A stretch of DNA of 64,000 nt. Origin: Pectobacterium brasiliense (lineage in GTDB: Bacteria; Pseudomonadota; Gammaproteobacteria; Enterobacterales; Enterobacteriaceae). Below are positions 16,942 to 40,133 of this stretch, one piece after another (within the stretch, counting starts at the first letter, position 1; the number at the start of each line of letters is the position of its first letter). The notes beneath the pieces are model-generated. The model was not told the origin of the DNA. It did not search any database and saw only the letters and a list, made by a program, of their open reading frames with translations. The position numbers and the translations under genes were made by a program. Where the stretch lies: NCBI RefSeq assembly GCF_016950255.1, contig NZ_JACGFN010000001.1, positions 1,674,001 through 1,738,000 of the forward strand. Reading direction: 5' to 3'.

Positions 16942-17022
16942 CCGCTAAATAAATGACATGTGCCGCAATAATTAGCAGGTATTTATTTATCTGTGGGAAT
17001 TCGTGCGGCCATTTTCCAGAGT

Positions 17023-17049
17023 CATCATTTAAGAGCCATCATTTAAGAG
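17023..17049 (+). repeat. 13-bp direct repeat just before atoD
   Basis: CATCATTTAAGAG occurs at 17023-17035 and again at 17037-17049, one base apart, ending 10 bases before the atoD start. The second copy contributes aagag as the ribosome site of atoD. Confidence 0.8.
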
Positions 17050-17059
17050 TAAATACGCA

Positions 17060-18363: not shown

Positions 18364-18374
18364 TCGAGGCGACC

Positions 18375-19553
18375 ATGAACGACTCCGTTGTTATTGTTAA
18401 TGCCAAGCGCACCGCAATCGGTAAATTCGCAGGCAGTCTGGCCAACACATCCGCTATCGAGATGGCGTCAGCCACCATTCGTGACTGTCTGTCGACGCTG
18501 CCGGACACGCTGGCGGTTGATGAAGTGATTCTCGGCAATGTGTTACAAGCCGGTCTGGGACAAAACCCGGCACATCAGGCGAGTCAGGCTGCCGGTCTCT
18601 CTTTTGAGACCCCCTCGCTGACCGTCAGCAAAGTCTGTGGTTCCGGCCTGAAGGCCGTCGTGCTCGGCGCGCAGTCTATTCTGTCCGGCGATAATCAGGT
18701 CTGCGTAACGGGCGGGATGGAAAACATGAGCGCTGCGCCTTACCTGCTGGAAAAAGCACGCCACGGTTACCGCATGGGGAATGGCAAGCTCGTTGACATC
18801 ATGATTAACGATGGCCTGTGGTGTGCGTTTAACGATTACCACATGGGCACCACGGCGGAAAATATCGCCGAGCGCTATCAGCTTACCCGTGAAGAGCAAG
18901 ATCGGGTGGCGCTGGCGTCCCAGCAGAAAGCCGTCGCCGCGATTGAGGCTGGCCGTTTCAAGGCGGAAATTACTCCGCTGTCACTGCGTAACAAGAAAGA
19001 GACGCGGATCTTCGATCGGGACGAATTCCCTCGTGCGGATACCACGCTAGCGTCGCTGGCAGCGCTACGTCCGGCATTTTCCGCGAACGGCACCGTCACC
19101 GCAGGCAATGCGTCCGGCATTAACGATGCGGCCGCGACGCTGGTGTTAATGCGTGAGTCCGAAGCGAAAAAACAGGGGATTACCCCGCTGGCACGTATCC
19201 GCAGTTGGGCGTCAGCCGGTGTACCGAGCGAGGTCATGGGGCTGGGGCCAATTCCCGCGACGCAGAAAGCGCTACTCAAAGCCGGGCTGACAATCAGCGA
19301 TATCGACCTGATTGAAGCCAACGAAGCCTTTGCCGCGCAGTTTCTAGCCGTACAGCGCGATCTCCATCTCGATCCAGAAAAAGTGAACGTCAACGGCGGT
19401 GCGATTGCGTTAGGTCACCCTATCGGAGCAAGCGGCGCACGCATTCTTGTCACGCTGGTGCACGCGCTGCACAGCTACAACAAAACGCTGGGATTGGCGA
19501 CGCTGTGCATAGGCGGCGGGCAAGGTATCGCGATGATCGTCGAGCGCGTTTAA
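18375..19553 (+). CDS. atoB: Acetyl-CoA C-acetyltransferase (thiolase, AtoB type)
   Basis: A 392-residue biosynthetic-type thiolase. Catalytic residues are Cys88 ([11 protein letters not shown]), His348 ([10 protein letters not shown]) and Cys378 (CIGGGQG). Working after AtoDA it would split acetoacetyl-CoA into two acetyl-CoA. It is the last gene of the cluster; a strong terminator follows 21 bases past its stop. Length and motifs are normal. Confidence 0.95.
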
Positions 19554-21583: not shown

Positions 21584-22201
21584 TTATTTCAGATAAGCCA
21601 GCGCCTGCTTCAGCATTTGTTCATCAATGCCGTGCCCGACAGCGGGGGCAACATCCAACGTAAACGACGTCCCCAGTTCCTGAAAACGCTGAGCGGCAGC
21701 ATGAGCATGTCCAACCACAATCACGCCGTCCGCTTCACCGTGAATGAGGTGTACTGCAACATCAGCAAAGGCTTTTTCTGGCAGCACAGCAAAGCGACCG
21801 CTGAACGCGATAATGTGCCCAGCCAGCAAGGATTCAGACTTCAACGCTTCCAGCGACATAATGCTGCCCTGCGAGAAGCCCACCAGCACGGTTTGTTCCG
21901 CACTCACGCCGCTTTGCACCTGCCAGTGGCGTACCGTCTCAATAAAACGCGGCAGGTTTGCTTCAATACGAGATAACCGATTCTCTTCCGTGACACCCTG
22001 AACAGAGAACCACTGCCGCCCGTCACCATAGCCAGTACTGAACGGCCCGGCAATACTGACTACCATCGCCTGCGGTAAGGCGGCAGCAAAATAGCGCCCA
22101 ATCTGTGCCATGCCTGCGGCGGTATCACCCACGCCATGAAACAGCAGGATTAATCGATTTGCTTCTGAGGGTTGCTGAACAACAACATAATCTTGATTCA
22201 C
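21584..22201 (-). CDS. ypfH: YpfH, alpha/beta-hydrolase carboxylesterase
   Basis: A 205-residue cytoplasmic esterase. The oxyanion-loop region LLFHGVGDTAAGM, the nucleophile elbow VGFSQGSIMSLEAL (Ser of GFSQG), the aspartate in IHGEADGVI and the histidine of VGHGIDEQ form a standard catalytic set. It matches E. coli YpfH but is shorter at the C-terminus. The start is GTG 22201, seven bases behind AGGAGAG; an upstream frame extension lacks a ribosome site. In E. coli ypfH lies between ypfN and tmcA; here it is stranded between two large inserts. Confidence 0.9.
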   Translation of the reverse strand: MNQDYVVVQQPSEANRLILLFHGVGDTAAGMAQIGRYFAAALPQAMVVSIAGPFSTGYGDGRQWFSVQGVTEENRLSRIEANLPRFIETVRHWQVQSGVSAEQTVLVGFSQGSIMSLEALKSESLLAGHIIAFSGRFAVLPEKAFADVAVHLIHGEADGVIVVGHAHAAAQRFQELGTSFTLDVAPAVGHGIDEQMLKQALAYLK

Positions 22202-22364
22202 ATTTCTCTCCTGAAGGCATGCGCCGAACACGTCACCTGCCGATATTCGTCATAAAGTACGGTTAGCTCTCACTATACGCCGCGCAATAACAGGAGAAAT
22301 CGGGAATTACTGAAGGAGATGTTCCATTTTTTGCAACGACAAAGGGAATATCCGACCCACCCTG

Positions 22365-22592: not shown

Positions 22593-22795
22593 CGGCTTAT
22601 CCTGATTTAATAAAAAATTATGTCGCTCTCGCTGTCACTTTTCTGTGGCTATTGCACAAAGATCAGTGAAGGAGAATGAGGCTCTTTTCTACCAGAAACC
22701 GTCCTTCATGCAAATGGGGTTTATTCAGCAGAATAACGTCTCTCATTAACGGCAATTGACTTTCCAAATCCCTGTTTTTCTTGGGAGGCGGCTCT

Positions 22796-26132: not shown

Positions 26133-26897
26133 GTGGAGCAGAATAATAAACCCTATTTGCAGCGCATCTATTTTCATCCGCAAAAAACACTCGACCCGCA
26201 GGCTTACCCATTAACCATTCCAGCGATAAACGATCTCGAAAAAATCCGCTTTCATCCCGATGTCACCTTTCTGGTCGGCGAGAACGGCTCTGGTAAATCG
26301 ACGTTGCTCGAAGCCGTGGCAATCGCGATGGGGTTCAACCCGGAAGGCGGCTCACGTAATTTCAATTTCAACACCCGCGATTCCCATTCCAACCTGAGCG
26401 ACTATCTCCGCATCGTCAAAGGCATAACACGTCCGCGTACCGGCTATTTTTTACGGGCAGAAAGTTTTTTCAATGTGGCGACAGAAATAGAAAATATCGA
26501 TCCCGGCCTGATTCAGCTGGCTTACGGTGGTGTTTCGCTCCATCAGCAGTCGCACGGCGAATCATTCATGGCGCTGTTAAACCACCGCTTCGGTGCCAAC
26601 GGGTTTTATCTGCTGGACGAACCAGAAGCTGCGCTGTCTCCTACTCGGCAGCTCACCGCTCTGGCGCGCATCCATCAGTTGGTGAACGCAGGGTGTCAGT
26701 TCATCATCGCTACCCACTCACCTATTATTCTGGCCTACCCTAATTCAGTGATTTATCAGTTCAATGAAAACGGTATTCAGCAGGTGGCATGGCAGGATAC
26801 GGAGCATTATCAAATCACGCGACAGTTTTTAAATAACCCACAGGGCATGATGAAGATATTACTCGCCGATGAAGACGGCACCGGTGAAAACGCTTAG
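26133..26897 (+). CDS. AAA/ABC-type predicted ATPase (COG3910-like)
   Basis: A 254-residue stand-alone ATPase with an ABC/SMC-type fold. Walker A is FLVGENGSGKSTLLEAVA (about 48-65), the signature-like segment is SHGES, and Walker B is FYLLDEPEAALSP, followed by ATHSPIILAYP with the switch histidine. No membrane or DNA-binding domain is present. Close families are annotated only as predicted ATPases. The start is GTG 26133 behind gggga. A small unknown gene follows after 37 bases and may be its partner. It could be a repair, stress or defence ATPase; the sequence does not decide. Confidence 0.78.
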   Translation: MEQNNKPYLQRIYFHPQKTLDPQAYPLTIPAINDLEKIRFHPDVTFLVGENGSGKSTLLEAVAIAMGFNPEGGSRNFNFNTRDSHSNLSDYLRIVKGITRPRTGYFLRAESFFNVATEIENIDPGLIQLAYGGVSLHQQSHGESFMALLNHRFGANGFYLLDEPEAALSPTRQLTALARIHQLVNAGCQFIIATHSPIILAYPNSVIYQFNENGIQQVAWQDTEHYQITRQFLNNPQGMMKILLADEDGTGENA

Positions 26898-27355: not shown

Positions 27356-29158
27356 TCACTCCCCGCGCCAGGCAAAACCACGTTCACTAAATGCCCTATC
27401 AGAATCTGGATGCGGCAGTGCATCCTCGCCCACATAAGCATCCTTCTCATGCCGACTGTCACTTTCGGCTAACGGTGTCAGGTGTAGATGATGAGTATGC
27501 AAAGCCGCCAGCGATTCCCGATGCGCCACGCTGATAATAGCGCTCTCAGGTAAGGCAGTGACTAATGCCTGATACACCTGCTGCTCGGTTTCAGGATCGA
27601 GCGCACTGGTGGCTTCATCCAGAAAAATAAAATCGGGCCGATGCAACAACGCGCGGGCTATCGCCATTCGCTGCTGCTCACCGCCGGATAACCGCTGCTG
27701 CCAGCGATCTTCATCATCCAACTGCGAGGCCATGTCCGATAATTTGCTGTCGATGAGCGCCTGTCGGCACTGCTCGTCGGTAAAATCCCGCACGTTGCTG
27801 GGGTAGCACAATGCCGCTTTCAGCGTTCCCGTCGGGAGGTAGCTTTTCTGCGGTAAAAACAGCGTGCGGCAGTGGTGAGGCCGTGTAATCACCCCACTAC
27901 CGTGCTGCCATAGTCCGGCACAGGCGCGTAGCAGCGTGCTTTTACCCACACCAGATGCACCGTTAATCATCCAGCGCTCACCGGGCAAGACCTGCCAGTC
28001 ATCTAACGCTGTCAGCGCACGGCCATCCGGCGTTAACAACCGCAGATTCTCACAGGAAAACCCAAGACCATCATGTTCCGTCACCCGAATAGGCGATGAC
28101 GTCCGCACACTTTTGTTCAGCGCAGCTTCCATATCCTGCAAACGCCTCGTCAGCGCCAGCCAGCGCGTGAATGACTGATACGCCTGCATAAAATAGCTCA
28201 GCGTCGCCCCCAGAGAACCATAAGCCATCTGAATCCGCGTCAAATCGCCGAAGGTGATCTCTCCACGTAACAGCTGTGGCAGCGCCAATAGCGTCGGTAA
28301 CGGTGAAAGAAAATGGCTAAACAAACTCTGACCAAACGACACCTTAAAACCACGCAGCAGCACAGACAGCGCATTGTCACGCACGCGAGCAAACCGCTGG
28401 GCCAGCCGTTCACCTTCCCGCGTCCCTCCCTGATAGAAGGCAATCTGTTCGGCGTTTTCGCGTAATTGAACGCCCAGAAAGCGGAAGTCACCTTCCGCAT
28501 TCTGTTGGTTCATATTCAGTTTTATCAACGCCTTACCCAGCCAGTGCGACAGCGCAACCTGAAGGATATATTCGATATAGAGGGCGTAAACCATATAGCC
28601 GGATATCGCCCAGTCGCTGCCCATAAACGAGAAACGCAGTACCCCAGACACCGACCACAGCAACGCCGTGTACGTGACGGTACTGATGACGACCGAGATA
28701 AGGCTGAGAAAAAAGTTCAGCGAGGCCGATACCAGTTCGTTAACGTCATCGGCGATACGCTGATCGATATTCGACAGCGCACCGTCTCTCTCTATTTCGT
28801 AATAAGCCGATGTCCCCGTCCAGCGCCGGATATAGTGGAGCGTCATCCAGGTACGCCAGCGCAACGCCAGATAGCCCTGACTGAGCACGTTTACCCATCT
28901 CAGCATCATGGCGCTCAAACCGAGGATGAAGCTGAAGATAAACAGCGGTTTTATTTGCTCCCAATCCAGCCCAATCAACGCATCGGTGAATTTCCCCGAG
29001 ACTCGGTTCGCCTCCACGCTGATGTAGGCCGTACCCAGATTGATACTAATAATCACCGCCAGAATAAACAGCGCCAGATATTTCTCTGGCGTCTGCCAAT
29101 AGGGCATCAGAATCTGGCCGATGCCCGGTCTGGTCGTGCTCGTCTCACTTGCGTTCAT
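27356..29158 (-). CDS. SbmA/YddA-type ABC transporter, fused permease and ATPase
   Basis: A 600-residue protein with an SbmA/BacA-like membrane domain (about six segments in residues 25-340) fused to a nucleotide-binding domain, the architecture of YddA. The ATPase half has Walker A GASGVGKSTLLRACAGLW near residue 415, the signature LSGGEQQRMAIARALL, Walker B FIFLDEATSALD and the switch VAHR. SbmA-domain proteins import peptides such as microcins, though SbmA itself lacks an ATPase; direction here is not known. The start lies 74 bases after the TonB-receptor stop on the same strand, so the two form an operon. Confidence 0.88.
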   Translation of the reverse strand: MNASETSTTRPGIGQILMPYWQTPEKYLALFILAVIISINLGTAYISVEANRVSGKFTDALIGLDWEQIKPLFIFSFILGLSAMMLRWVNVLSQGYLALRWRTWMTLHYIRRWTGTSAYYEIERDGALSNIDQRIADDVNELVSASLNFFLSLISVVISTVTYTALLWSVSGVLRFSFMGSDWAISGYMVYALYIEYILQVALSHWLGKALIKLNMNQQNAEGDFRFLGVQLRENAEQIAFYQGGTREGERLAQRFARVRDNALSVLLRGFKVSFGQSLFSHFLSPLPTLLALPQLLRGEITFGDLTRIQMAYGSLGATLSYFMQAYQSFTRWLALTRRLQDMEAALNKSVRTSSPIRVTEHDGLGFSCENLRLLTPDGRALTALDDWQVLPGERWMINGASGVGKSTLLRACAGLWQHGSGVITRPHHCRTLFLPQKSYLPTGTLKAALCYPSNVRDFTDEQCRQALIDSKLSDMASQLDDEDRWQQRLSGGEQQRMAIARALLHRPDFIFLDEATSALDPETEQQVYQALVTALPESAIISVAHRESLAALHTHHLHLTPLAESDSRHEKDAYVGEDALPHPDSDRAFSERGFAWRGE

Positions 29159-29232
29159 GTGCCGTTTCTACCTGCTGATTCGTGTGAATGACCGTTCTCG
29201 TTATTTGTCTAACAGATTGGCCGAACGGATTA

Positions 29233-31608
29233 TCAGAACGAATATGTCCCAGTGAGACGCCATGTCCGCCCTTCTTTCACCCCGATATACAGCGGCGTCG
29301 TGCTGGTGTAATAGATATCGCGATCGAAGACGTTATTGACGCCCAGCGTCAGCGACCAGTCAGGCTGGCGGTAAAATACCGATGCGTCGGTTGATGCCGA
29401 ACTGCCGATGTTGAAAGCATTATTGCTCGGGCCATTCTGCGTTCTTGATGAACCGCTGATACCGACTGATGCACCAGCCCCTTGATAGCGTCCAGATTGC
29501 ACTTCATAAGACGTCCACACATTTCCAGAGTGGCGCGGCGTAATCGTGCTACGAACGGTAGTAGGATCCTTATTATCCGAGTAGGTATAGCTGGCCGTGA
29601 CATCCCATCCCGGCAACAAAGAACCATTCAGATCCACGTCAAAACCTTCACTTTTGCGTCCCGTGGTCGCAATGGGGAAACCGTTTCTATCCGTTACTGC
29701 CAGGTTTTTTTGCTCAATGCTGAATACGGCTGTCGTCAGCGTGAGGTCGTCATCAAGCAGGTTAAACTTCAGCCCCGCTTCTTTAGACTGCCCCGTCGTT
29801 GGCGGGAGCTGAACGCCTGAACGCGAAACCTGCGCGCTGCCGCTAAAGCTATTCAGCAGGTTGGCGTAAATCGTAACGTCCGGTGTGATATCGAAGCTAA
29901 TGCCGTAATTGGGAATCCATTTGGTCGCGGTGTACGTCGATGCTCGCGTTCCCACCAAATAGCTGTTGTTCCATGTTGACCGCTTCACCGCCAGTTGGAA
30001 ATGCAGGCGGTCAAAGACATCGATCTGATCCTGGAACAAGAAACCGCTTTGAATCAGCTTGGACGTGTACGTCCGGCTATTTGGTTCACCGATGCTCGGG
30101 AACACCAACGAGTCCGGGTTATACACATTCCCATTGGTCATCAGGATAAAGCTGCCGTCATAGCTGGCGTAACGTTCATGCTTATAGTCATGACCGAGCA
30201 ACAAGGTCTGCGTGACGGGCCCGGTTTCGATTTTCCCGCGAATATCATTTTGCTGGCTCCACGTCTGATTGGTGGACTTATAGGCCAACGGATGGCTGAT
30301 CTTGTTGCCATTGGCGGCGATATCCAGCGTTTCGTTCATCTTCATCTGCGAAGCCGTACTCTGGAAACCCGCTTTACTGTTAAAGGTCCAATCGCCGACG
30401 AGTTTTTGCTCCAGTTCATAATAGGCATTCGTCGTTTTCATCTTGTTATGATCGTCTTTATCTCCCAGACGATATTCCGGCAGCTTCTGTATTCTTCCGT
30501 TAGCGTAAATCGTTCCGGCAGGTCCTGATTTACGCGCCTGATTCACTTCTGCGCCAACGGTGATCCGCGTATTGTCATTTTTCCAGGTCAGCGCTGGGGC
30601 TAAATAATCGCCGTGGTTACCGTGGTAGTCAGGAAAGGAGTGCTGAGATTTCATGGTTGAGGCATTCAAACGGTAGCTGAACGCTTTATCGTCCGTGAGC
30701 GCGCCGCCCAGATCGATAGCCGTTTTAAATTCCCCGTAGCGCGCCGCCTCGACTTTGAGGACATGCAACGGTTCGGTTACCGGTTTTTTACGCACAACGT
30801 TAATCGTTCCCGCGGCAGAGCTACTCCCCGCCAACACCGACTGCGGCCCTTTCAGCACTTCAACACGTTCGATCCCCTCAATCGCCGTACCTTGACCAAT
30901 ACCGGCGTTGCTGGAGCCAGACAGGCCATCCGTCGCACCGGACGTCACCGCATAGCCACGCATCCAGTACGTAGGCGTACCGCGGTTTGACTGAATGGTG
31001 ACCACGCTGCCCGAGTTTTTTAACGCTTCTTCCAGCGATGTGGCCTGACGAGCGGTAATCAGCTTATTACTGATTACCTGAACCGACTGTGCCGTTTGCT
31101 GCAACGACGTGCTGGTGCGTAATGCCGAAGAGGAGGTGCCGGGGTTCAATACGGTTTCATCTTCGCTGCCTGCGCTGACGGTAATCGCAGGCAGCGTTTT
31201 GTCACTCGCCTGCGCCACTTCCGCATCATTAGCGCGGGAAGAAACTATGGTCAGCGTGCCATTATCCGTCGTCGTCAATAATAAGGGCGTGCCTTGCAGT
31301 AAGCGTAAAATAGCCTGACGCGTTGAATAGTTGCCATTCAGCGCGGCGCTCTGGTAATTCGCCACCAGCGCAGGATTAAAAGAGAGTGTCTGCTTGCTTT
31401 GATTGGCGATTGCCAATAGCCCTTTTTGCAGGTCGCCCGCAGGAATAGAAAATGCCACGGTGTCATTTTCACCCGCCGCATATGCAGCCACAGGAACGGT
31501 CGTCGCCCCCACGAATAACGCAGAATTCATTGTCAGCATAGTAGTGAAGAATAAGCGCTTCTTAACACTCAGCCCCAGAGCAGGAGAGGCAGCATTACCT
31601 TTTTTCAT
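29233..31608 (-). CDS. TonB-dependent receptor with N-terminal signalling (STN) domain
   Basis: A 791-residue outer-membrane transducer. After a signal peptide (to about residue 45), a secretin/TonB short N-terminal domain covers about 50-125 (VAFSIPAGDLQKGLLAIANQ), which touches a FecR-type regulator. A plug follows (SVQVISNKLITARQATSLEE, VEVLKGPQSVLAGSSSAAG) and a 22-strand barrel ending WRLTGTYSF. The signalling domain, with divergent sigma and anti-sigma genes next door, indicates substrate-induced transcription as in FecA. The family is annotated as siderophore receptor, but nothing here fixes the ligand. ATG 31608 follows GAGGG. It is the first gene of the receptor-ABC operon. Confidence 0.92.
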   Translation of the reverse strand: MKKGNAASPALGLSVKKRLFFTTMLTMNSALFVGATTVPVAAYAAGENDTVAFSIPAGDLQKGLLAIANQSKQTLSFNPALVANYQSAALNGNYSTRQAILRLLQGTPLLLTTTDNGTLTIVSSRANDAEVAQASDKTLPAITVSAGSEDETVLNPGTSSSALRTSTSLQQTAQSVQVISNKLITARQATSLEEALKNSGSVVTIQSNRGTPTYWMRGYAVTSGATDGLSGSSNAGIGQGTAIEGIERVEVLKGPQSVLAGSSSAAGTINVVRKKPVTEPLHVLKVEAARYGEFKTAIDLGGALTDDKAFSYRLNASTMKSQHSFPDYHGNHGDYLAPALTWKNDNTRITVGAEVNQARKSGPAGTIYANGRIQKLPEYRLGDKDDHNKMKTTNAYYELEQKLVGDWTFNSKAGFQSTASQMKMNETLDIAANGNKISHPLAYKSTNQTWSQQNDIRGKIETGPVTQTLLLGHDYKHERYASYDGSFILMTNGNVYNPDSLVFPSIGEPNSRTYTSKLIQSGFLFQDQIDVFDRLHFQLAVKRSTWNNSYLVGTRASTYTATKWIPNYGISFDITPDVTIYANLLNSFSGSAQVSRSGVQLPPTTGQSKEAGLKFNLLDDDLTLTTAVFSIEQKNLAVTDRNGFPIATTGRKSEGFDVDLNGSLLPGWDVTASYTYSDNKDPTTVRSTITPRHSGNVWTSYEVQSGRYQGAGASVGISGSSRTQNGPSNNAFNIGSSASTDASVFYRQPDWSLTLGVNNVFDRDIYYTSTTPLYIGVKEGRTWRLTGTYSF

Positions 31609-32017
31609 TTTTCCCTCGTCAATTGCTTCAAAAAATCAGTTTTTATTGGTCTTCGTATGATTTGTGCAATGACGATGAAAAAGTGACAGCAGGAAAGTCA
31701 TTTTTCCCGTAATTATTTTTTCTCGGTAGAAAACAGATTGATTTGGAAAAACCTTTTCTCTGTATTTTTAAATATAAAAAATGAATCACTCTTCTGAATC
31801 ATCTTTTTTATCTCCCACTAAGAAACATCCAGAAATAGCGATTTACCCATTCCAATCAGTAACAGAACATTTCTAACTAACGATAGAAAAAAAACGTGGT
31901 TTGACTCCTGCAAATTTTGACTTAAAAACAGCACAGGACGCACCGTTCCTTTTGTTCTGCGGCCCTGGGGTATCCCGGTTCAAGCATTGTTGTGATTTAC
32001 GCGATTTAAGGATGCCC
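31609..32017. promoter_or_regulatory. Divergent control region between receptor and sigma-factor genes
   Basis: 409 mostly AT-rich bases between divergent starts. The minus-strand side carries the shared 30-bp motif (31661-31690). I searched for a Fur box (GATAATGATAATCATTATC-like) by eye on the sigma side and did not find a convincing one. No gene is supported within it. Confidence 0.5.
31661..31690 (-). promoter_or_regulatory. Shared 30-bp promoter-region motif, receptor copy
   Basis: Read on the minus strand this block has TGTCAC, TTTTT, then TCATTGCACA, in the same ungapped spacing as the copies before tonB (33549) and the TldE gene (35894). It ends 52 bases before the receptor start. 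Identity to the tonB copy is 21 of 30. It is a candidate target of the adjacent FecI-type sigma factor. Confidence 0.65.
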
Positions 32018-32539
32018 ATGTACACAGAGGCTGCTAAAAAACCCGACTTACTGTCGCTGATATTTCGCAGCGATTATCGCTGGCTAACGGACAAATTACG
32101 CCGCCGTATTGCCTACGGCTGTGAAGCGGAAGATGTCGCCTCAGAGGCATTTCTACGTTTAGCCTCGCTACCAAACCTTGCCAACGTACAAGAACCGCGC
32201 GCGATGCTCACTACGCTCGCCAAACGCGTACTGTATGAAAACTGGCGTCGCCGCGATCTGGAAAAAGCTTATCTCACCGCGTTGGCAAGTAAACCTGAAT
32301 TTCACCATCCATCGCCGGAAGAGCAACAGCTGTTGATGGAGGCGCTGCTCACTATCGATCAGGCGCTGGATGGGCTATCCACCAAAGCACGGCAGGCATT
32401 TCTGTTCAGCCAGCTTGATGGCATGACCTATACCGACATTGCCGTGCAGCTCGATGTCTCCGCCAGTATGGTGAGAAAATATATCGCCAAAGCGCTGACC
32501 AACTGTTATCTGGCCACGCAGGACAGCAGTGACTTATAG
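32018..32539 (+). CDS. FecI-type ECF sigma factor
   Basis: A 173-residue iron-starvation-type sigma factor, the typical FecI length. Region 2 is at about 15-80 (LSLIFRSDYRWLTDKLRRR, GCEAEDVASEAFLRL) and region 4 at about 105-165 (LSTKARQAFLFSQLDGMTY, TDIAVQLDVSASMVRKYIAKAL, the helix-turn-helix). ATG 32018 is preferred: aagga lies 5-6 bases before it, while the ATG at 32012 is too close. The FecR-type gene follows directly. In this family the anti-sigma protein relays occupancy of the STN receptor to the sigma factor, which then switches on transport genes. Confidence 0.92.
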   Translation: MYTEAAKKPDLLSLIFRSDYRWLTDKLRRRIAYGCEAEDVASEAFLRLASLPNLANVQEPRAMLTTLAKRVLYENWRRRDLEKAYLTALASKPEFHHPSPEEQQLLMEALLTIDQALDGLSTKARQAFLFSQLDGMTYTDIAVQLDVSASMVRKYIAKALTNCYLATQDSSDL

Positions 32540-32548
32540 GTGAACCGC

Positions 32549-33517
32549 ATGGCAAGACGACACATGGATGACCCGATTGCCGAACAGGCGATTGAATGGA
32601 TGGTGCTGCTGCGTTCCGGCGAAGCAACACAGACCGACTACGATGAATACCGCCGCTGGCGGTATGAAAACCCTCTACATGAACGAGCCTGCCAACGTAT
32701 CGAGCAAACGCTGGGGAAATTTCAACCGCTTCTCGCCGCACTGCCTCACGAACCGATTCGCCAGGCGCTATTAGCCCCATCAAGTCGACGCAAAGTTCTG
32801 CAATATGGGCTGGGCATGGTGGCTGTCGCCTCGCTAAGCAGCCTGCTACTTAACCAACATTACCCCCTGTCACCGCTTTTGTCCGATGTGAAAACCGCCA
32901 CAGCACAGCGTCAGCAGGTTCCACTCAGCGATGGCAGTACGCTCATGTTGAACGCGCGTACCGCCGTCGATATCAATGTGGAACCAGAAAATACCCTTCG
33001 TCAGGTCGGCATTCTCAATGGTGGTGTCTTCGCGAAGATTAAGTCGGACACACAGCGCCCTTTTATTATTGATACCAAGATGGGCAATATCGTCGCGCTT
33101 CAGGCCAATGTGAACGTACGTTATGAAAGCGGCGGCATCCACGTCGGCGTGTTGGATAACATCGCCAAGGTGACTAACCACGCAGGGCAAAGCCTGAGCC
33201 TTCACGCGGGGCAAGGCGTCTGGTTCGATCATTCAACGCTCTATCAGGTTGCCGTCACGCCGGAGGCAGAAAGCGCCTGGATGCAGGGGCGGCTGGAAGT
33301 CCGCGATCGATCGCTGGCGTCGGTTATCAACGCGCTGCGTGATTACACTCCCGGCATTATCCGGTTGGATCCCGCTATCGCCGATCTGCGCGTCAGCGGT
33401 AATTTCCCGTTAGATAACCTGAACTACACGCTGGATTCTCTGGCGCAAACCATGCCCATCGCGATTGTGCATACCACGGATTACTGGATACATATCCGCG
33501 CCGCCAAACCGGCATAA
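32549..33517 (+). CDS. FecR-type transmembrane sigma regulator
   Basis: A 322-residue inner-membrane regulator. The N-terminal cytoplasmic DUF4880 part (PIAEQAIEWMVLLRSGEAT, YRRWRYENPLHERAC) would hold the sigma factor. One membrane helix at about 90-107 (VLQYGLGMVAVASLSSLLL) follows, then the periplasmic FecR domain (VPLSDGSTLMLNARTAVDI) and a C-terminal STN-like module. ATG 32549 has aggtg six bases before it; the GTG at 32540, right after the sigma stop, is the alternative. It completes the receptor-FecR-FecI signal path of this locus. Confidence 0.92.
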   Translation: MARRHMDDPIAEQAIEWMVLLRSGEATQTDYDEYRRWRYENPLHERACQRIEQTLGKFQPLLAALPHEPIRQALLAPSSRRKVLQYGLGMVAVASLSSLLLNQHYPLSPLLSDVKTATAQRQQVPLSDGSTLMLNARTAVDINVEPENTLRQVGILNGGVFAKIKSDTQRPFIIDTKMGNIVALQANVNVRYESGGIHVGVLDNIAKVTNHAGQSLSLHAGQGVWFDHSTLYQVAVTPEAESAWMQGRLEVRDRSLASVINALRDYTPGIIRLDPAIADLRVSGNFPLDNLNYTLDSLAQTMPIAIVHTTDYWIHIRAAKPA

Positions 33518-33548
33518 ACAATAAGCCATCAAAAAATTTCACGCACGT

Positions 33549-33578
33549 GGTGACACTTTTCCTGCCTCGTTGCACATC
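33549..33578 (+). promoter_or_regulatory. Shared 30-bp promoter-region motif, tonB copy
   Basis: GGTGACAC, TTTT, then TCGTTGCACATC, preceded by an A6-TTTC patch. It matches the copy at 35894-35923 at 26 of 30 positions without gaps. It lies 81 bases before tonB, after the FecR gene, and so would start the tonB-exbB-exbD transcript. Confidence 0.7.
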
Positions 33579-33658
33579 GTTAATAGAGGTCATCACAATC
33601 CCGATGTCAGGACGGCATACAGCGTCCGACAACGTAAGCAAGAGCAGCAGAGGAAAAC

Positions 33659-34540
33659 GTGCAACAGGCATCTGTGCAACACCTTTCGTTAAACGCGCGC
33701 ATTGATGCGGCACCTGCCGCACGGCATGACGTCGCATCCACACAGCCATCGCTCAGTATGACGGTGGCGGCACCCGCCCGGGGAGAAATGGGGAAGATTG
33801 CGCTCAGCTTTCTGACGGTCGCGCTGATCCATGCGGGTGTCGCTGCCTTACTCATCACTCGAACCACCGAATACACACCGATCAACCTGCTCAATCCAGC
33901 AGCCAGTATCAGCATTCAGGCCACGATGGTTGAAGCACCGGAACCCGAATCGATTCCCGAACCGTCGCCGGAGCCCCCCGTGCTGACATCAGAACAGGGT
34001 GAACGTGAAATTGCGCCCGTCCCTGAAAAGCCCGTCGTTGAGAAACAGCAAACACCGCCGCCTACGGTCAAAAAAGAGGTTCACCAGCCGCCGGTTAAGC
34101 CAGTGGTAAAACCGCAGCCCGTTCGCCCAAAAACCACCGCCGAGCGTCAGCCTGCGGCGCGTCCTGTATCGGAACCGTCTTCCACCACACCGGAAGCGAC
34201 GCCAGTCCCGCAGACGACCGCCAGCAAGGGCAACCTGATGCAGAACAGCCCTGGTGCTCAGCCTAAACAGGTCGCATCCGTTGGCTGTATCGTTCCGCAA
34301 CCTGACTACCCTCGCCGCGCCAAGCGTCTCCAGCAGGAAGGCAACGTGCTGGTTCGTCTGGTGATTAGCCCAGAGGGGCGATTGATTCGACACGACATTG
34401 CCCGCAGCAGCGGCTATGACGCCCTCGATCAGGCCGCGATTGAGGCCGTGGCGCAGGCACGCTGTACGCCTTACCGCGAAAATGGACAGGCCATTACCGT
34501 CATGACGATTCAGCCCGTTAATTTCCGGCTGACTCACTAA
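33659..34540 (+). CDS. tonB: TonB, energy-transducing protein of a dedicated system
   Basis: A 293-residue TonB-family protein: cytoplasmic tail, one membrane anchor (about 45-67, IALSFLTVALIHAGVAALLI), a long Pro/Glu/Lys periplasmic spacer (about 90-190) and a C-terminal TonB domain (CIVPQPDYPRRAKRLQQEG, VLVRLVISPEGRL). The spacer is unlike the EP-KP repeats of the housekeeping TonB, and the gene is followed by exbB and exbD, so it probably serves the local receptor. GTG 33659 is the start, behind agagga. Confidence 0.92.
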   Translation: MQQASVQHLSLNARIDAAPAARHDVASTQPSLSMTVAAPARGEMGKIALSFLTVALIHAGVAALLITRTTEYTPINLLNPAASISIQATMVEAPEPESIPEPSPEPPVLTSEQGEREIAPVPEKPVVEKQQTPPPTVKKEVHQPPVKPVVKPQPVRPKTTAERQPAARPVSEPSSTTPEATPVPQTTASKGNLMQNSPGAQPKQVASVGCIVPQPDYPRRAKRLQQEGNVLVRLVISPEGRLIRHDIARSSGYDALDQAAIEAVAQARCTPYRENGQAITVMTIQPVNFRLTH

Positions 34541-34618
34541 GAAAGCACCCGAGTTGAAATAGCGCATTCGCCGTTTCGCAAACACGCCCGAATCAGGTTA
34601 TTGCATAGGAGGTCACAC

Positions 34619-35359
34619 ATGAACACGTTAGATATCCACCATTTCTGGCAGCAGGGCGATGTCGTCACCCACTCGGTAGCCATCATTCTGCTGATCATGT
34701 CGCTGCTGTCATGGACGGTCATGCTGCTCAAAGCACGGCAGTTGCTCGCATTGAACAAGAGCGTGCAATACAGTCGGAATACCTTTTGGCAGGCGACCAG
34801 CCTGCAAGAGAGCGTCGAGAAATTCGGTAAGCAGCGTTTTAACCCGTTCCGCGATCTGGTGATCGAAGGACATGCGCTGCTGAAACACCCACACAAATTC
34901 TCTTCCACGCTAGGCGGACACGTCGATCTCAGCGACTGGCTGGTGCGCGGCCTGAGCAACACGCTGGACACCAACTCAGGCAAACTGCAATCCGGCCTCG
35001 GCACGCTGGCATCTATCGGCAGTACCGCGCCGTTTATCGGTCTGCTGGGCACCGTGTGGGGCATTTTTCACGCGCTACAAACCATTAGCACCATCGGCCA
35101 GCCCGATCTGGCTCAGGTTGCTGGTCCCGTCGGAGAAGCCTTGATCATGACGGCGTTTGGCCTGTTCGTGGCGATTCCCGCCGTATTAGGCTTCAACGCG
35201 ATCAACCGCCGCAATCGCATCGTCCTGCATGCCATGAATCGCTTTGCGCACGATCTGCACGCTTACCTGCTGACTGGCGCGCGCGTGGATACCAGTATTA
35301 CCGACCTGAATAGCGCGGCACGGTATGAGCCGACTCACCCCGTTGAGCGCTCCGCCTGA
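34619..35359 (+). CDS. exbB: ExbB-type proton-channel subunit
   Basis: A 246-residue MotA/TolQ/ExbB protein with three membrane segments: one near the N-terminus (VAIILLIMSLLSWTVMLL) and two flanking the conserved TAPFIGLLGTVWGIFHAL and MTAFGLFVAIPAVLGFNAI. With ExbD it uses the proton gradient to energise TonB. ATG 34619 follows ggaggt; the tonB stop is 78 bases upstream. Confidence 0.94.
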   Translation: MNTLDIHHFWQQGDVVTHSVAIILLIMSLLSWTVMLLKARQLLALNKSVQYSRNTFWQATSLQESVEKFGKQRFNPFRDLVIEGHALLKHPHKFSSTLGGHVDLSDWLVRGLSNTLDTNSGKLQSGLGTLASIGSTAPFIGLLGTVWGIFHALQTISTIGQPDLAQVAGPVGEALIMTAFGLFVAIPAVLGFNAINRRNRIVLHAMNRFAHDLHAYLLTGARVDTSITDLNSAARYEPTHPVERSA

Positions 35360-35373
35360 AGAGGAACATCGCC

Positions 35374-35796
35374 ATGAGTATGTCATCTCCGTTTGAAAGT
35401 CAGGAAGACGCCCTGCTTAACGACATCAACATGACGCCGTTTATCGATGTCATGCTGGTGCTGCTGATCGTGTTCATGATTACCCTGCCGGTCATTAATC
35501 ATGCCGTCAAAGTGGAGCTACCGCGCGCCAGCGTCGAGAAAATCAAGAAAGATCCACAGGCTGTGGATATCGCAATTACTGCAACCGGACAAATTAACTG
35601 GAATAAAGAAGCCGTTGATGATGCCCAACTGATCGCCAAACTCGATGCGGCCTCAGCCGAAGGCACTCACCCAAATATACGGCTGTTTGCCGATCAGGCC
35701 GTCGAATATGGTCGAGTGGCGTATGTCATGACCAATGCTCAGCAGCGTGGCCTGAGCAAAATCGATTTCGTCCTGCAACCCGTCAAAGCACCCTGA
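35374..35796 (+). CDS. exbD: ExbD-type proton-channel subunit
   Basis: A 140-residue ExbD/TolR protein: a short cytoplasmic front, one membrane helix with the essential aspartate in INMTPFIDVMLVLLIVFMI, and a periplasmic domain (DIAITATGQINWNKEAV). It follows exbB after 14 bases and ends the tonB-exbBD unit; the next gene is 162 bases away and has its own motif copy. Confidence 0.95.
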   Translation: MSMSSPFESQEDALLNDINMTPFIDVMLVLLIVFMITLPVINHAVKVELPRASVEKIKKDPQAVDIAITATGQINWNKEAVDDAQLIAKLDAASAEGTHPNIRLFADQAVEYGRVAYVMTNAQQRGLSKIDFVLQPVKAP

Positions 35797-35893
35797 CCTC
35801 CCTTTTCGCTCTGGTGCTGACAGCCGCGCCAGCACCAGAGCGCATCATCTTCTCCATCATCCAACACCTCAGCGTAAAAAAGTTTCGTCTCGC

Positions 35894-35923
35894 GGTGACG
35901 CTTTTCTTTCTTCGTTGCACATC
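35894..35923 (+). promoter_or_regulatory. Shared 30-bp promoter-region motif, TldE copy
   Basis: GGTGACGC, TTTT, then TCGTTGCACATC, preceded by A6-gTTTC. It ends 35 bases before the TldE gene start. Being almost identical to the tonB copy while the surrounding DNA is unrelated argues for selection on a regulatory site. Confidence 0.7.
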
Positions 35924-35958
35924 ATGAGTAGAACACTGTTACGCATGGATACCGAATA

Positions 35959-37323
35959 ATGCCTTCTCTTGATGAATCCCCCGTTCTTGCTACGCCGCAG
36001 ACCGACACGCTTCAGTCGCTGGCCGGAGACGTACTGGACTTCGCGGCCACAAAAGGCGCGAGTCAGGCGGTCGTCAGCATCTCGCAGGGAAACCGCCGTA
36101 CGATCCGCGTCAGGAACGGCGATATTGATACGCTGACGCAAAACCAAAGCCGCTTCCTGTCCGTTACGGTCTACTTCGGCCAGCGCGCAGGCACCGTTTC
36201 TTCGACCTTGTTTAGCAAGGAAGCGTTGCAGGATGCCGTGGACGCTGCCAGCACGCTGGCAAAATATGCTGATGAGGATCCGTGTAGCGGTCTGCCGGAA
36301 GCGCAGCATTTCGCCCGTGAGATTTACGATCTTGCGCTGCACAACGCCGATACGCTGACAGTTGAGCAAGCGCTGTCGCTGGCGCTACGCGCCGAGCAGG
36401 CCGCCAATACCACACATGAACATGGCTACAGCGAGAGCACGGAAATCACCTCACAGCAGGGAGATTTTATTCTGGCGAACTCTGCCGGTTTTTCGGCGGG
36501 CTACCCGACGTCGTTACACACCCTGTGGAGCCATGCGATTGCGCGTAACGATACGCAACGCCAACAAGGTTTCTGGCACACCACCGGCAGAGCACCGTCG
36601 CTGCTGGCCTCGCCAGAGGCCATCGGGCATACCGCCGCACAACGTGCGGTGGCACAGCTAGGAGCACAGAAACTCTCAACCCGCCGCTGTCCAGTGCTGT
36701 TTGATGCCCCAGTGACGCACAGCCTGATTCATCATCTGGTCGGTGCGCTGAGCGGTGCGGCACTTTATCGCTCCACATCATTTCTGGGTCAGTGCCTCGG
36801 TGAAACCATCACTGCACCGCACCTGAGCCTGTATGAAAATCCGTTTATTCCCGGTGCACTGGCTAGCGCCTGCTTTGATGCCGAAGGCGTCGCCGCGGCT
36901 CCGCGGCATGTCATCCACGACGGCATTGCACAAGGCTATTTTCTCTCAAGCTACAGCGCTCGACGTCTGGGGCTCACGACGACCGGACACGCAGGTGGAG
37001 CCTATAACCTGACCGTCAGCAGCAGCCAAAGTCGCAATGACGATGACTTGCCAGCGCTGCTGCGCCAGATGCACACAGGGCTGCTGGTGACCACGCTATT
37101 GGGGCACGGACTGAACCCAATGACGGGCGACTATTCGCAGGGCGTGGCGGGCTTTTGGGTCGAAAACGGCGAAATTCAGTATCCGGTCGAAGAGATCACG
37201 ATTGCGGGCAACCTGAAAACGCTGCTCCTGCACTGTGTCGCGCTCGGGGCGGACATCCACACGCAGGGCAATCTCTCCTGCGGTTCCCTATTGATTGAAG
37301 AGATGCAGATCGCCGGGCAGTAA
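35959..37323 (+). CDS. pmbA: TldE/PmbA-like metalloprotease partner subunit
   Basis: A 454-residue TldD/PmbA-family protein lacking the HExxH motif, which marks it as the TldE-type partner that builds the active-site wall in TldD-TldE dimers. Family features are VVSISQGNRRTIRVRNGDID near the front and YNLTVSSSQSRNDDDLPALL plus MTGDYSQGVAGFWVENGEI at the end. In E. coli tldD and pmbA lie far apart; here the partner follows after 34 bases, suggesting a specialised second pair. Known dimers trim unstructured peptides such as microcin B17 precursor and CcdA. It begins its own unit behind the shared promoter motif. Confidence 0.88.
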   Translation: MPSLDESPVLATPQTDTLQSLAGDVLDFAATKGASQAVVSISQGNRRTIRVRNGDIDTLTQNQSRFLSVTVYFGQRAGTVSSTLFSKEALQDAVDAASTLAKYADEDPCSGLPEAQHFAREIYDLALHNADTLTVEQALSLALRAEQAANTTHEHGYSESTEITSQQGDFILANSAGFSAGYPTSLHTLWSHAIARNDTQRQQGFWHTTGRAPSLLASPEAIGHTAAQRAVAQLGAQKLSTRRCPVLFDAPVTHSLIHHLVGALSGAALYRSTSFLGQCLGETITAPHLSLYENPFIPGALASACFDAEGVAAAPRHVIHDGIAQGYFLSSYSARRLGLTTTGHAGGAYNLTVSSSQSRNDDDLPALLRQMHTGLLVTTLLGHGLNPMTGDYSQGVAGFWVENGEIQYPVEEITIAGNLKTLLLHCVALGADIHTQGNLSCGSLLIEEMQIAGQ

Positions 37324-37357
37324 TCCCACATCGCGTCATAGAAACAGGATCACCATC

Positions 37358-38803
37358 ATGGCAATACACGCTTCCAGAGCGCCAGTCTCACCTGTGCTGT
37401 CGGCATTTTCGCTGGAAACGACGGAGATAACGCACGCGCTGAACCACATCATGCAGCGTCAGGTGGACTATGCCGATCTCTATTTTCAACGCCGCCAGCA
37501 GGAAGGCTGGCAGTTAGAAAACGGTATCGTGCGCCCAACAGGATTTAGTCGCGATCAGGGCGTTGGCGTCCGCGCCGTCAGCGGCGAGAAAACGGCGTTC
37601 TCCTACACTAATGACCTCCGTCCGCAGGCGATTCTACAAGCGGCCAATACCGTAAGAGAAATCAGCCGTCAGGGACAGAACGCTAGTGTGGCACTACCCG
37701 TATCGCTGCCGCACGGCATTACCACGCTCTACCCGTCAGACAATCCCTTACTTGCCGTAACCGAAGAACATAAACGTCAGCTTCTGCTCTCGATCGACAG
37801 ACAGGCGCGCGCCCGCGATCCCCGCGTGACGCAGGTAACGGCTTACCTGAATGCTTCGCACGAAACCATTCTGATCGCCCGACATGACGGCAGGCTCGCC
37901 ACCGACGTTCGCCCACTGGTGAATCTGGTCATCAATGTCGTCGTCGAACAGCAGGGTCGCCGAGAGAACGGTTCCAGCGGTGGCGGGCGACGTCTCGACT
38001 ACCGATTCTTTGCTGACGAGACGGTCAGCCAGTGGGTTAATCAGGCCGTCGATCAGGCGCTGAATAATCTGGATGCCAGCCCGGTGCCAGCAGGCACTTA
38101 CAGCGTGATCCTCGGTGCTGGTTCACCCGGTATTTTGCTGCATGAAGCTATCGGGCACGGGCTGGAAGGCGATTTTAATCGCAAAGGCAGTTCCGCATTT
38201 TCTAGCCTATTAGGAGAACGCGTTGCCGCGCCGGGCATTACCGTCGTGGATGACGGCACGCTCGCCAACCGGCGGGGTTCGCTGCATGTGGACGATGAAG
38301 GCACGCCGTCGCAGTGTACAACGTTAATCGAAGACGGCATCCTGCGCGGCTATTTACAGGACAGCCTCAACGCCAGACTGATGAATACCGCCCTGACGGG
38401 CAACGCGCGTCGGGCTTCCTACTCCATGCTGCCGCTGCCGCGCATGACCAACACCTACATGCTAGCTGGACAATATCCCGCCGAAGAAGTGGTCGCATCG
38501 GTCAAAAACGGCCTCTACGCCGTCGGCTTCGGCGGCGGGCAGGTTGATATCAGCAGCGGGAAATATGTCTTTTCCACCACGGAAGCTTACCTGATTGAAA
38601 ACGGACGCGTCACTCGTCCGGTTAAAGGTGCCACGCTGATTGGTCACGGGCCAGAGGCGCTGCTGCACGTCGCGATGGTGGGCAACGATCTGGCTTTGGA
38701 TGACGGCAATATCGCTTGCACCAAAGAAGGCCAATCCCTGCCCGTCAGCGTCGGCCAGCCAACGCTTCGTATCGACAACATGACCGTAGGCGGCTCGCAG
38801 TAA
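37358..38803 (+). CDS. tldD: TldD-like zinc metalloprotease subunit
   Basis: A 481-residue TldD-type protein with the catalytic HEAIGHGLEGDFNRKG (His262, Glu263, His266) and the third-ligand region MLPLPRMTNTYML. Other blocks are VDYADLYFQRRQQEGWQLENG and GGGQVDISSGKYVFSTTEAYLIENG. ATG 37358 (MAIHAS) is chosen over an upstream in-frame extension that overlaps the TldE gene. With TldE it should form a closed protease acting on small unfolded peptides in the cytoplasm. Placement after a TonB receptor and SbmA-type transporter suggests that the imported material is its substrate. Confidence 0.9.
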   Translation: MAIHASRAPVSPVLSAFSLETTEITHALNHIMQRQVDYADLYFQRRQQEGWQLENGIVRPTGFSRDQGVGVRAVSGEKTAFSYTNDLRPQAILQAANTVREISRQGQNASVALPVSLPHGITTLYPSDNPLLAVTEEHKRQLLLSIDRQARARDPRVTQVTAYLNASHETILIARHDGRLATDVRPLVNLVINVVVEQQGRRENGSSGGGRRLDYRFFADETVSQWVNQAVDQALNNLDASPVPAGTYSVILGAGSPGILLHEAIGHGLEGDFNRKGSSAFSSLLGERVAAPGITVVDDGTLANRRGSLHVDDEGTPSQCTTLIEDGILRGYLQDSLNARLMNTALTGNARRASYSMLPLPRMTNTYMLAGQYPAEEVVASVKNGLYAVGFGGGQVDISSGKYVFSTTEAYLIENGRVTRPVKGATLIGHGPEALLHVAMVGNDLALDDGNIACTKEGQSLPVSVGQPTLRIDNMTVGGSQ

Positions 38804-38867
38804 GCCGTGCGTCACGGTTCATTGCCCCTACTCAATTTACTCACGATTTTCTCTGAACGGAGACACC

Positions 38868-40133
38868 ATGTCAGACGCCATTATCACTGCCAGCGACACC
38901 TCGTTGGATGCGTTGCTCACGACTAGCGACAAACCCATTTTGCTCGATCTGTGGGCACCCTGGTGCCAGCCGTGTAAAACGCTGGCTCCTTTGCTGAACA
39001 CGATTGCCGATAACACGCCAGACAACCTGACCGTCGCTAAGCTGGATGTGGAGCAGTATCCGGCATTCATGCAGCGTTTTGGCGTGCGCGGCATTCCTAC
39101 GCTGCTGCTGTTTAAAAATGGGCAAGAGATTTCACGACAGATCGGCGTGAAAACACTGGCACAGCTACGCGGCTGGCTGGAATCGCACGAGATTGCGATA
39201 CAGAACACCGTACAGCCGCTGGCAGACATCCGCGTTACGTGGAGCACGTTCTATGGTGATGCTTCGCTACACACTTTCCTCCACCAGCGGCTACGTCAGC
39301 ATGCGGCGGACGGCAATATCGAACACGCGTTTTCCCCCTATTGGCAGGACAACAAAGGCTCAGTCTCTGCTGCACTGGCACACAACGCAGACATTCGCAT
39401 CTTTGAACGCATCACCGGACTACCTGCCGCGCTCGGCTTACTGCTGGAAAAACTGCCGAGCACCACACCAGAACAGGTTGATGCCCTCTTTGCGGCGCTT
39501 GCTCCGGGAAAAACGGTAGATGGCGTTGCGCTGCAATGGCTGCACCACTGGTTAAGTCACGAAGGAAATCCGTGGTCTGACTGGCTGGCAGATAAAACCG
39601 TAGATGGCTTGCGCCAACAGTGGGTTCAGGCAATTTCACGACTGCTAGCAGGTGAAGCCGTGGCAGAAAGCGAATGGACGGCACTGCACCAGCAGGCAAT
39701 AAGCTGGGAAGAAAAAGCGGCTACCGAACTGGGCCTGGAAAAGAATGTTGCAACAATACTCGCCAGCCTATCGCCGCCGCCTGCCGCGTCCGACGCTGAT
39801 AGCTGGCGCAGCATCAGCATCACTCTTGGCTTCGCGCTGGCGCAGATCCTGCAAATTAAAGACGGATGGAGCAGAGAAGAACGCGCAACGCCAGATAGAC
39901 GCTTCCGCTGGTTTCAGGCACAGGAAGACGCCACGCCGAGCAAAAAGCTAACGGATGAACAAATTACCACGCTGCGTGAGCAGTGGCTTCAGGAAAACCC
40001 AGATTTTTCCGCGAAAGAGGACGCATTTTATCAGCGCTATCCGCAGCTGTCAGAAGCGCAGAAAATCCTCTTACAGGAAACGCTATGGGAATTGCTTCGT
40101 CGTGCGCCCGCCTTCAAATCACAGCTGGACTGA
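38868..40133 (+). CDS. Thioredoxin-domain protein with a large unassigned C-terminal region
   Basis: A 421-residue cytoplasmic protein. Residues about 1-108 are a complete thioredoxin fold with the active site WCQPCK (Cys33, Cys36) and the cis-proline GVRGIPTLLLF. The remaining 310 residues are helical and tryptophan-rich, and I cannot assign them to a family; a segment at about 110-195 resembles tetrapeptide-like thioredoxin-associated regions only vaguely. No signal peptide. It follows the TldD gene by 64 bases in the same direction and ends the locus. A likely role is reducing disulfides of the imported substrate, or holding a partner. Gln in place of Gly in CxPC is unusual for thioredoxin. 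Confidence 0.8.
   Translation: MSDAIITASDTSLDALLTTSDKPILLDLWAPWCQPCKTLAPLLNTIADNTPDNLTVAKLDVEQYPAFMQRFGVRGIPTLLLFKNGQEISRQIGVKTLAQLRGWLESHEIAIQNTVQPLADIRVTWSTFYGDASLHTFLHQRLRQHAADGNIEHAFSPYWQDNKGSVSAALAHNADIRIFERITGLPAALGLLLEKLPSTTPEQVDALFAALAPGKTVDGVALQWLHHWLSHEGNPWSDWLADKTVDGLRQQWVQAISRLLAGEAVAESEWTALHQQAISWEEKAATELGLEKNVATILASLSPPPAASDADSWRSISITLGFALAQILQIKDGWSREERATPDRRFRWFQAQEDATPSKKLTDEQITTLREQWLQENPDFSAKEDAFYQRYPQLSEAQKILLQETLWELLRRAPAFKSQLD

Follow-up and report, generated by a model that had tools for sequence, protein, structure and literature searches.

What would an outer membrane receptor that senses its ligand, a two-subunit protease and a thioredoxin accomplish in a single bacterial locus? 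The question is raised by a stretch of 64,000 nucleotides (hereafter, the window) of Pectobacterium brasiliense (GCF_016950255.1, contig NZ_JACGFN010000001.1, positions 1,674,001 to 1,738,000), in which Pfam and NCBIfam profiles and motifs identified a cassette of ten genes at positions 27356-40133 (Table 1). The genes are arranged in two divergent arms, with an ATP-binding cassette (ABC) transporter and a TonB-dependent receptor encoded on the minus strand and the remaining eight proteins (FecI, FecR, TonB, ExbB, ExbD, TldE, TldD and a thioredoxin fusion designated TrxF) on the plus strand. An initial annotation of the same DNA had named all of these genes, and each was found in the place assigned to it; the STN receptor, the FecI/FecR pair, the private TonB-ExbB-ExbD, TldE-TldD and the thioredoxin fusion were all confirmed by profile or motif. 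We show that the cassette is a real unit and, on balance, lean toward its being a ligand-induced system for the import, reduction and digestion of a small peptide or peptide-like compound.

The strongest evidence for a unit is its recurrence outside Pectobacterium. Profile searches with the whole TrxF protein were swamped by ordinary thioredoxins, and matches were counted only if they covered the C-terminal part. Full-length TrxF was found in 9 of 295 genomes of the family Enterobacteriaceae: 3 Pectobacterium, 5 strong matches from other genera and a weak one (G098) accompanied by a receptor, ABC proteins and TonB-ExbBD and by no TldDE. All ten genes were present in each of the five strong non-Pectobacterium genomes, which represent five genera (by TrxF identity, three are Biostraticola tofi at 100%, Brenneria goodwinii at 99% and a Gibbsiella-like organism at 93%), with 38-70% identity to the window. 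The order of the genes is shuffled in these genera, where receptor, ABC transporter, TrxF, TldE and TldD form one arm and FecI, FecR, TonB, ExbB and ExbD the other. Thus, TldE-TldD and TrxF stay associated with the other genes even though they lie on the opposite arm. A second search of the family, with a profile of the TrxF C-terminal domain, matched 13 of 392 genomes. Nine of the 13 carry the TldDE cassette, two genomes of one genus are considered below, one encodes, next to a receptor, two ABC proteins, ExbB-ExbD-TonB and an M16 protease, a protein that matches part of the domain and lacks thioredoxin, and one has a truncated remnant standing alone. In the wider samples, 6 of 398 genomes of the phylum matched, with all four strong matches inside this family, and the matches listed for 369 genomes of the class included no further full-length TrxF. 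A protein search returned at least 64 TrxF relatives, with lengths of 412-433 residues for 62, under names that include Dickeya, Pseudomonas, Nitrospirillum and Roseateles. A search of 20,395 E. coli records with TrxF DNA found no match.

Within Pectobacterium the cassette is an accessory element. TrxF was present in 16 of 25 genomes, and we compared the 16 loci (the window and 15 others). All ten genes were found in 12 of them; another carries all ten broken into pieces, two carry everything except TldE-TldD, and in one only TrxF and a piece of the ABC gene are left. The co-occurrence that the initial annotation had proposed to look for is hence seen in five other genera and in 12 of the 25 Pectobacterium genomes. 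In one of the two loci without TldE-TldD (L194), alignment of the junction with the window revealed the 3' end of TldD, which identifies the loss as a deletion; the junction of the other (L195), compared by reading, is nearly the same. Where TrxF is missing (nine genomes), tmcA and a carboxylesterase gene (window 21584-22231, presumably ypfH) lie 0.4-2.5 kb apart, and the 9.5 kb at this site had no match to any of the eight cassette genes used as queries (ABC transporter, receptor, FecR, TonB, ExbB, TldE, TldD and TrxF; of these, TrxF alone was searched genome-wide). The cassette is, therefore, gained or lost largely as a whole at one site; three of the sixteen loci have decayed in part, and one more copy is broken. 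That the ten genes are chance neighbors with no common function is barely credible. A second TldD elsewhere in the genome and the two loci that lost TldDE and kept the rest would be compatible with such an accident; however, the recurrence of all ten genes in shuffled order in five other genera led us to reject it, and the eight queried genes are jointly absent from the site in nine Pectobacterium genomes.

The cassette genes do not all evolve alike. In a comparison of 12 Pectobacterium loci, the receptor (83%), TonB (84%) and TrxF (84%) had the lowest mean pairwise identity and TldD the highest (95%, and never under 90%). Divergence was correlated among receptor, FecR and TonB (r 0.75-0.93) and among TldE, TldD and TrxF (r 0.82-0.91), and more weakly between the two groups (r 0.27-0.58), in all cases over pairs that are not independent. 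The outward-facing and processing halves of the cassette may have been exchanged separately between strains.

Table 1. Features of the cassette, with positions in the window, coding strand and the profiles or motifs behind each assignment.
Feature	Position	Strand	Evidence
YddA/FusD/Rv1819c-type ABC transporter, fused ATPase, BacA/SbmA-like membrane region	27356-29158	-	PF06472, PF05992, PF00005
TonB-dependent receptor (STN, Plug and barrel), siderophore-receptor family	29233-31608	-	Pfam, TIGR01783
Divergent promoter region, receptor/fecI interval	31609-31900	.	Position between the arms
FecI-type extracytoplasmic function (ECF) sigma factor	31901-32539	+	Pfam sigma70 regions 2 and 4
FecR-type anti-sigma/sigma regulator	32540-33517	+	Pfam FecR, DUF4880
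Dedicated TonB	33659-34540	+	Pfam TonB_C
Dedicated ExbB	34601-35359	+	Pfam MotA_ExbB
Dedicated ExbD	35374-35796	+	Pfam ExbD
TldE (PmbA-like, non-catalytic partner)	35959-37323	+	Pfam PmbA_TldD 1st-3rd; no HExxxH
TldD, catalytic subunit	37295-38803	+	HEAIGH; Cys-containing C-terminal region aligned with 5nj5
TrxF: thioredoxin (residues 1-106, WCQPC) and helical domain of about 300 residues of no known family	38868-40133	+	

Two of the gene starts in Table 1 may need revision. The true start of FecI is probably at about 32012-32018, because the NCBIfam alignment (NF008889) begins at residue 40 of the open reading frame (ORF), and Met22, at 37358, is the likelier start of TldD. The interval that holds the cassette also contains a subtilase autotransporter gene (window 22781-25765), partly kept in a genome that lost most cassette genes (L201). 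At the edge of the cassette, and outside it, is a gene for a small AAA ATPase (window 26133-26897) similar to the PtuA, AriA and Mads-model defense ATPases. A role of the cassette itself in anti-phage defense was considered and rejected, as PADLOC returned no match for TrxF, TldE or TldD and matched the ABC protein through its ATPase alone. Farther upstream, genes for a LysR regulator, a citrate-type transporter, an AtuA-like protein, a CoA transferase and a thiolase (window 12493-19553) resemble a separate catabolic operon.

TldD/E is a widespread protease whose everyday purpose is unclear and which is known chiefly from one toxin. The cassette pair has the motifs of this heterodimer: TldD carries HEAIGH at residue 283, and its alignment with E. 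coli TldD (5nj5) takes in the HExxxH and the conserved Cys of the C-terminus, and TldE lacks HExxxH and has PmbA as its best solved relatives. The score of TldE falls below the cut-off of the PmbA equivalog NF008268 (391.8 vs. 438), and by these features the protein is a diverged TldE. In a phylogenetic tree of TldD, the cassette copies fall outside the clade of the family's housekeeping proteins. As described by Ghilarov et al. (2017; PMC5810440), TldD/E binds peptides regardless of their sequence and accepts unfolded chains only, which enter a narrow channel N-terminus first.

TrxF could provide such chains. Its thioredoxin part, with the WCQPC motif, scores above the TIGR01068 cut-off, and the approximately 300 residues beyond it had no Pfam match at cut-off; in a structural comparison with a model of the whole protein, the alignment in most rows spanned residues 2-109. 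We inspected the N-termini of TldE, TldD and TrxF and calculated a simple hydropathy value, and saw no evident export signal, which suggests a cytoplasmic location for all three. Relatives of the C-terminal domain also occur away from TldDE. One match to the domain (G811, L175 9607-10536) is weak, lacks a thioredoxin and follows an ftsK-like gene and a 933-residue ORF that does not match the receptor of the window; another (G1014), in phage-like surroundings, was judged by eye to be due to chance and discarded.

In two loci TrxF, or its two halves, adjoin M16 proteases. The genome of Pectobacterium araliae (named by protein match), which has the TldDE cassette, carries a further locus (L174 3359-18753) in which genes for two receptors, FecI and FecR accompany those for two M16 proteases; the halves of TrxF are separate here, as a free thioredoxin and as two stand-alone proteins related to its C-terminal domain. 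On a Klebsiella pneumoniae plasmid (NZ_CP055068.1, L214 9787-28104), the one plasmid record in which the TrxF C-terminus was found, a full TrxF gene lies between M16 and receptor genes, and the locus also encodes another M16, a sigma factor, FecR, TonB-ExbB-ExbD and two ABC proteins. The plasmid is typed as mobilizable, and the locus sits among insertion sequences about 3-5 kb from the annotated resistance genes sul1, qacEdelta1 and aadA2. On inspection, the M16 proteins of the TrxF loci start directly with the protease domain and the FusC-like protein of the P. brasiliense genome starts with a signal-like stretch; both kinds of protease in TrxF loci thus appear to act in the cytoplasm. Two unrelated proteases share the TrxF partner, and the pairing of thioredoxin and protease that the initial annotation had made part of its argument gained strength accordingly. 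We propose tentatively, as a possibility that goes further than the cassette, that TrxF marks a class of systems in which a receptor in the outer membrane and a BacA-like ABC transporter would bring a folded disulfide peptide into the cytoplasm intact, to be opened there by the thioredoxin-chaperone fusion for TldD/E or a leaderless M16 protease; in Pectobacterium, Brenneria and Gibbsiella the substrate would be a cysteine-containing peptide of plant or bacterial origin.

For the cassette, we infer the transport direction, reduction, digestion, induction and substrate class as follows. The STN receptor would bind the compound outside the cell and signal through FecR to FecI, switching on the locus, and the dedicated TonB-ExbB-ExbD would power passage through the receptor. 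The ABC transporter, of YddA/BacA-like type, could then move the compound, largely intact, into the cytoplasm, where the helical domain of TrxF would hold it while the thioredoxin reduced its disulfides or otherwise opened it. By opening disulfides, the thioredoxin would supply the unfolded chains that TldD/E requires, and the protease could trim the opened chain from its N-terminus. The cell would gain amino acids, a bound metal or the destruction of a toxic peptide. We favor import into the cytoplasm followed by reduction and digestion because TldD/E takes unfolded chains only and because rhizobia offer a precedent. There, BacA imports cysteine-rich plant peptides and the cytoplasmic M16 peptidases HrrP and SapA are thought to destroy them; in the account given in PMC8175422, the oxidized peptides are nearly uncleavable by HrrP.

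Several observations weigh against this reading, beginning with the receptor. It scores above the cut-off for TonB-dependent siderophore receptors (TIGR01783; 268.8 vs. 223.5 bits), and its solved relatives include CntO and FoxA, the closest, and FpvA. BLAST, with E up to 1, did not match it to the genome's own FusA, which among solved structures matches FusA and YddB entries only. A siderophore-family receptor unlike FusA makes it likely that the cargo is small, and the cargo may be a siderophore. In that case iron would be the goal: the receptor would import, and the ABC protein carry inward, a ferric, possibly peptidic, siderophore or other metallophore made by another organism, and TldDE and TrxF would break a peptidic chelator to free the metal or have a minor part in cleaning up. 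We regard this as somewhat unlikely. The regulation fits, as the STN receptor, FecR and a FecI-group ECF sigma factor adjoin as in FecA-FecR-FecI surface signaling (the sigma factor is above the NF008889 cut-off and below that of the FecI equivalog), and in the Klebsiella TrxF-M16 locus the receptor is similar to those for pyochelin and pyoverdine. However, the divergent promoter (31609-31900) had no Fur-box-like site above shuffled sequences, a weak argument given that the Fus promoter used as a control was negative too. The cassette also lacks a FecBCDE-type importer, and a FecCD permease lies beside only one locus (L148) among the ten flanking ORFs in the five other genera. Furthermore, a protease pair and a thioredoxin are not the usual partners of siderophores.

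In four genomes (L145-L148), about 80 bases directly upstream of fecI (AAAAAATATACTTATA...ATTATTGGCTCG...) are strongly conserved. The stretch had no Rfam match in L145, L147 and L148 and is possibly a promoter or leader, or a small gene.

The protease pair supplies further counterpoints. A second, housekeeping-type TldD, 56% identical to the cassette protein, is encoded elsewhere in the P. brasiliense genome and turned up in all 9 genomes of the family that were searched for it; the cassette copy may, therefore, be redundant. The two Pectobacterium genomes that kept everything except TldE-TldD retain this housekeeping TldD. The tree gives no support (76/20, with long branches) to one common origin of the cassette TldDs and cannot separate one recruitment from two, one for the Pectobacterium pair and one for the pair of the other genera. 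The two genomes of one genus with a C-terminal domain match, one of which shares 403 of 411 residues with Tatumella terrea, have a receptor, two ABC proteins and TonB-ExbB-ExbD, and no match to TldDE or M16 in the approximately 20 kb around. Likewise, a Salinisphaera locus has TrxF, receptor and ABC genes and no TldDE in about 20 kb around (M16 was not searched there). The TrxF relative of Salinisphaera (L017 9719-10960) has lost the active-site CxxC and kept its ABC, receptor and FecI neighbors, and the fusion may consequently have a non-redox role as well. Hydropathy alone is not decisive for the location of the proteases either, as one P. araliae M16 protein reached 2.00, against 2.07 for the FusC-like protein; we take the stretch behind this value to be the first strand of the protease domain and have discounted it. 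Finally, the fold of the ABC protein is common to exporters too, and its sequence does not distinguish import from export. The proposal of import and digestion made in the initial annotation thus gains from the conserved gene set and the M16 pairing, and loses from the siderophore-family receptor and from the two Pectobacterium genomes that dispense with TldE-TldD.

The Pfam matches of the ABC transporter are ABC_membrane_2 (156.8 bits), SbmA_BacA (62.3 bits, cut-off 24) and ABC_tran, it carries Walker A, signature and Walker B motifs, and its closest solved structure is 6tqe, which we take to be Rv1819c of M. tuberculosis. The peptide importer SbmA/BacA consists of the SbmA_BacA membrane domain without an ATPase of its own. 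The initial annotation had described an SbmA/YddA-type protein; the cassette transporter carries a fused ATPase, which makes it YddA/Rv1819c-type and not SbmA itself. As expected of a FusD/YddA-type protein, it is 32% identical (266 bits) to the genome's FusD-like protein. It is also 34% identical to a third such transporter of the genome, whose locus (contig 1, 2343000-2362900; L188 5226-11171) encodes FecI-like and FecR-like proteins (assigned by eye), a receptor and the ABC protein (both by BLAST), and no protease or thioredoxin. The BacA-like character of the transporter, and a protease and thioredoxin without evident export signals, would also suit a protective variant of the same route, in which antimicrobial peptides (plant defense peptides or bacteriocins) are drawn in for destruction. 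The rhizobial BacA/peptidase model is a published parallel (PMC8175422), and the patchy accessory distribution of the cassette, the plasmid-borne M16 version and the variability of the receptor among strains are in keeping with it. Energized, receptor-specific import across the outer membrane is, however, an unusual route for toxins, and we consider detoxification improbable.

Since its fold is common to exporters, the ABC protein could instead secrete an endogenous peptide, a ribosomally synthesized and post-translationally modified peptide (RiPP) or a peptide metallophore with its precursor encoded elsewhere, which TldDE would mature and the receptor would recover. TldD/E is indeed the leader protease of microcin B17, as PMC5810440 reports, and the lasso-peptide isopeptidase clusters described in PMC9266682 likewise combine a TonB receptor with sigma and anti-sigma factors. 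Against this, neither the cassette nor the ten flanking ORFs in the five other genera contain a constant modification enzyme, and the gaps that we compared contain no clear conserved precursor. Among 73 small ORFs of at least 18 residues in these gaps, there were 14 matches between genomes, of 9-24 residues each. The single match of the window (10 residues, E 0.007) is in the ExbD-TldE gap, and no small ORF in its receptor-fecI gap matched another genome. The other 13 matches, whose starts differ, all come from L145-L148, inside the interval between receptor and fecI, and we read them as conserved DNA. Re-uptake of a home-made peptide is, in our estimate, highly improbable, and a RiPP biosynthesis cluster was judged unlikely for want of a clear conserved precursor in the gaps, the part of each genome that was compared; in four of the other genomes a precursor may yet be present there.

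The preferred reading, import followed by reduction and digestion, places the cassette between several known systems. With Fec, Fox and Fpv-type loci it shares surface signaling and the receptor family; to our knowledge, the textbook forms of these loci have neither protease nor thioredoxin. Microcin B17 is taken up by SbmA, whose membrane region is related to that of the cassette transporter, and is processed by TldD/E, to whose family the cassette protease belongs. There, however, the protease matures a home-made toxin, whereas the cassette has no modification genes or clear precursor and its transporter has its own ATPase. Lasso-peptide clusters, as presented in PMC9266682, also pair a ligand-sensing TonB receptor with FecI/FecR-like proteins and a dedicated peptidase, yet the peptidase is an isopeptidase instead of TldDE and the clusters carry the biosynthesis genes of the peptide itself. 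Closer in its logic is the rhizobial system, with its BacA-group inner membrane importer, cytoplasmic metalloprotease and need for reduction of the peptide. Its protease is M16 rather than TldDE, the portions of PMC8175422 used here describe no dedicated receptor or thioredoxin, and the parts of the cassette, in contrast, form one locus.

Import dependent on TonB and coupled to a dedicated protease is itself known from the protease-associated Fus system (FusABCD) of Pectobacterium and YddA-YddB-PqqL of E. coli, as set out in PMC6793856 and PMC5095587. The initial annotation had known of no described system with this set of genes, and we found none in the open-license literature, judged partly from titles and the beginnings of abstracts; the ten-gene combination is, in our judgment, apparently undescribed. 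Grinter et al. (2019; PMC6793856) studied import clusters via FusA homologues. In some of these they noted a different protease, and for others they suggested cytochrome c peroxidases as redox partners; neither TldD nor thioredoxin turned up when the main text of that paper was searched for the terms. Like the cassette, Fus and YddA-YddB-PqqL combine in one locus a TonB receptor, a TonB-like protein, a dedicated protease and a YddA/FusD-type ABC transporter. P. brasiliense has its own Fus operon elsewhere in the genome, recognized by a receptor that matches the solved FusA and by neighbors named from their order and size. The comparison with Fus drawn in the initial annotation is apt for the function and the ABC protein and fails for the receptor and the protease, neither of which is related to Fus. 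The receptor is unlike FusA, and no M16 protease, let alone a periplasmic one such as FusC or PqqL, is found among the cassette genes; we therefore ruled out membership of the Fus family. In place of M16 the cassette has TldDE, with no evident export signal, which would place processing in the cytoplasm, and it adds the thioredoxin fusion, FecI/FecR and a complete TonB-ExbB-ExbD. The helical C-terminus of TrxF, as yet unclassified, can serve as a marker for more such systems, one of which is already on a plasmid typed as mobilizable. From the locus one can predict a definite task for a private TldD/E that follows a receptor able to sense its ligand, an ABC importer and a thioredoxin, in an order of events that can be tested. 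If this is true, TldD/E would gain a second natural role, the digestion of imported peptides, and the piracy of peptides and proteins would extend beyond Fus and PqqL, with the cutting moved from the periplasm to the cytoplasm.

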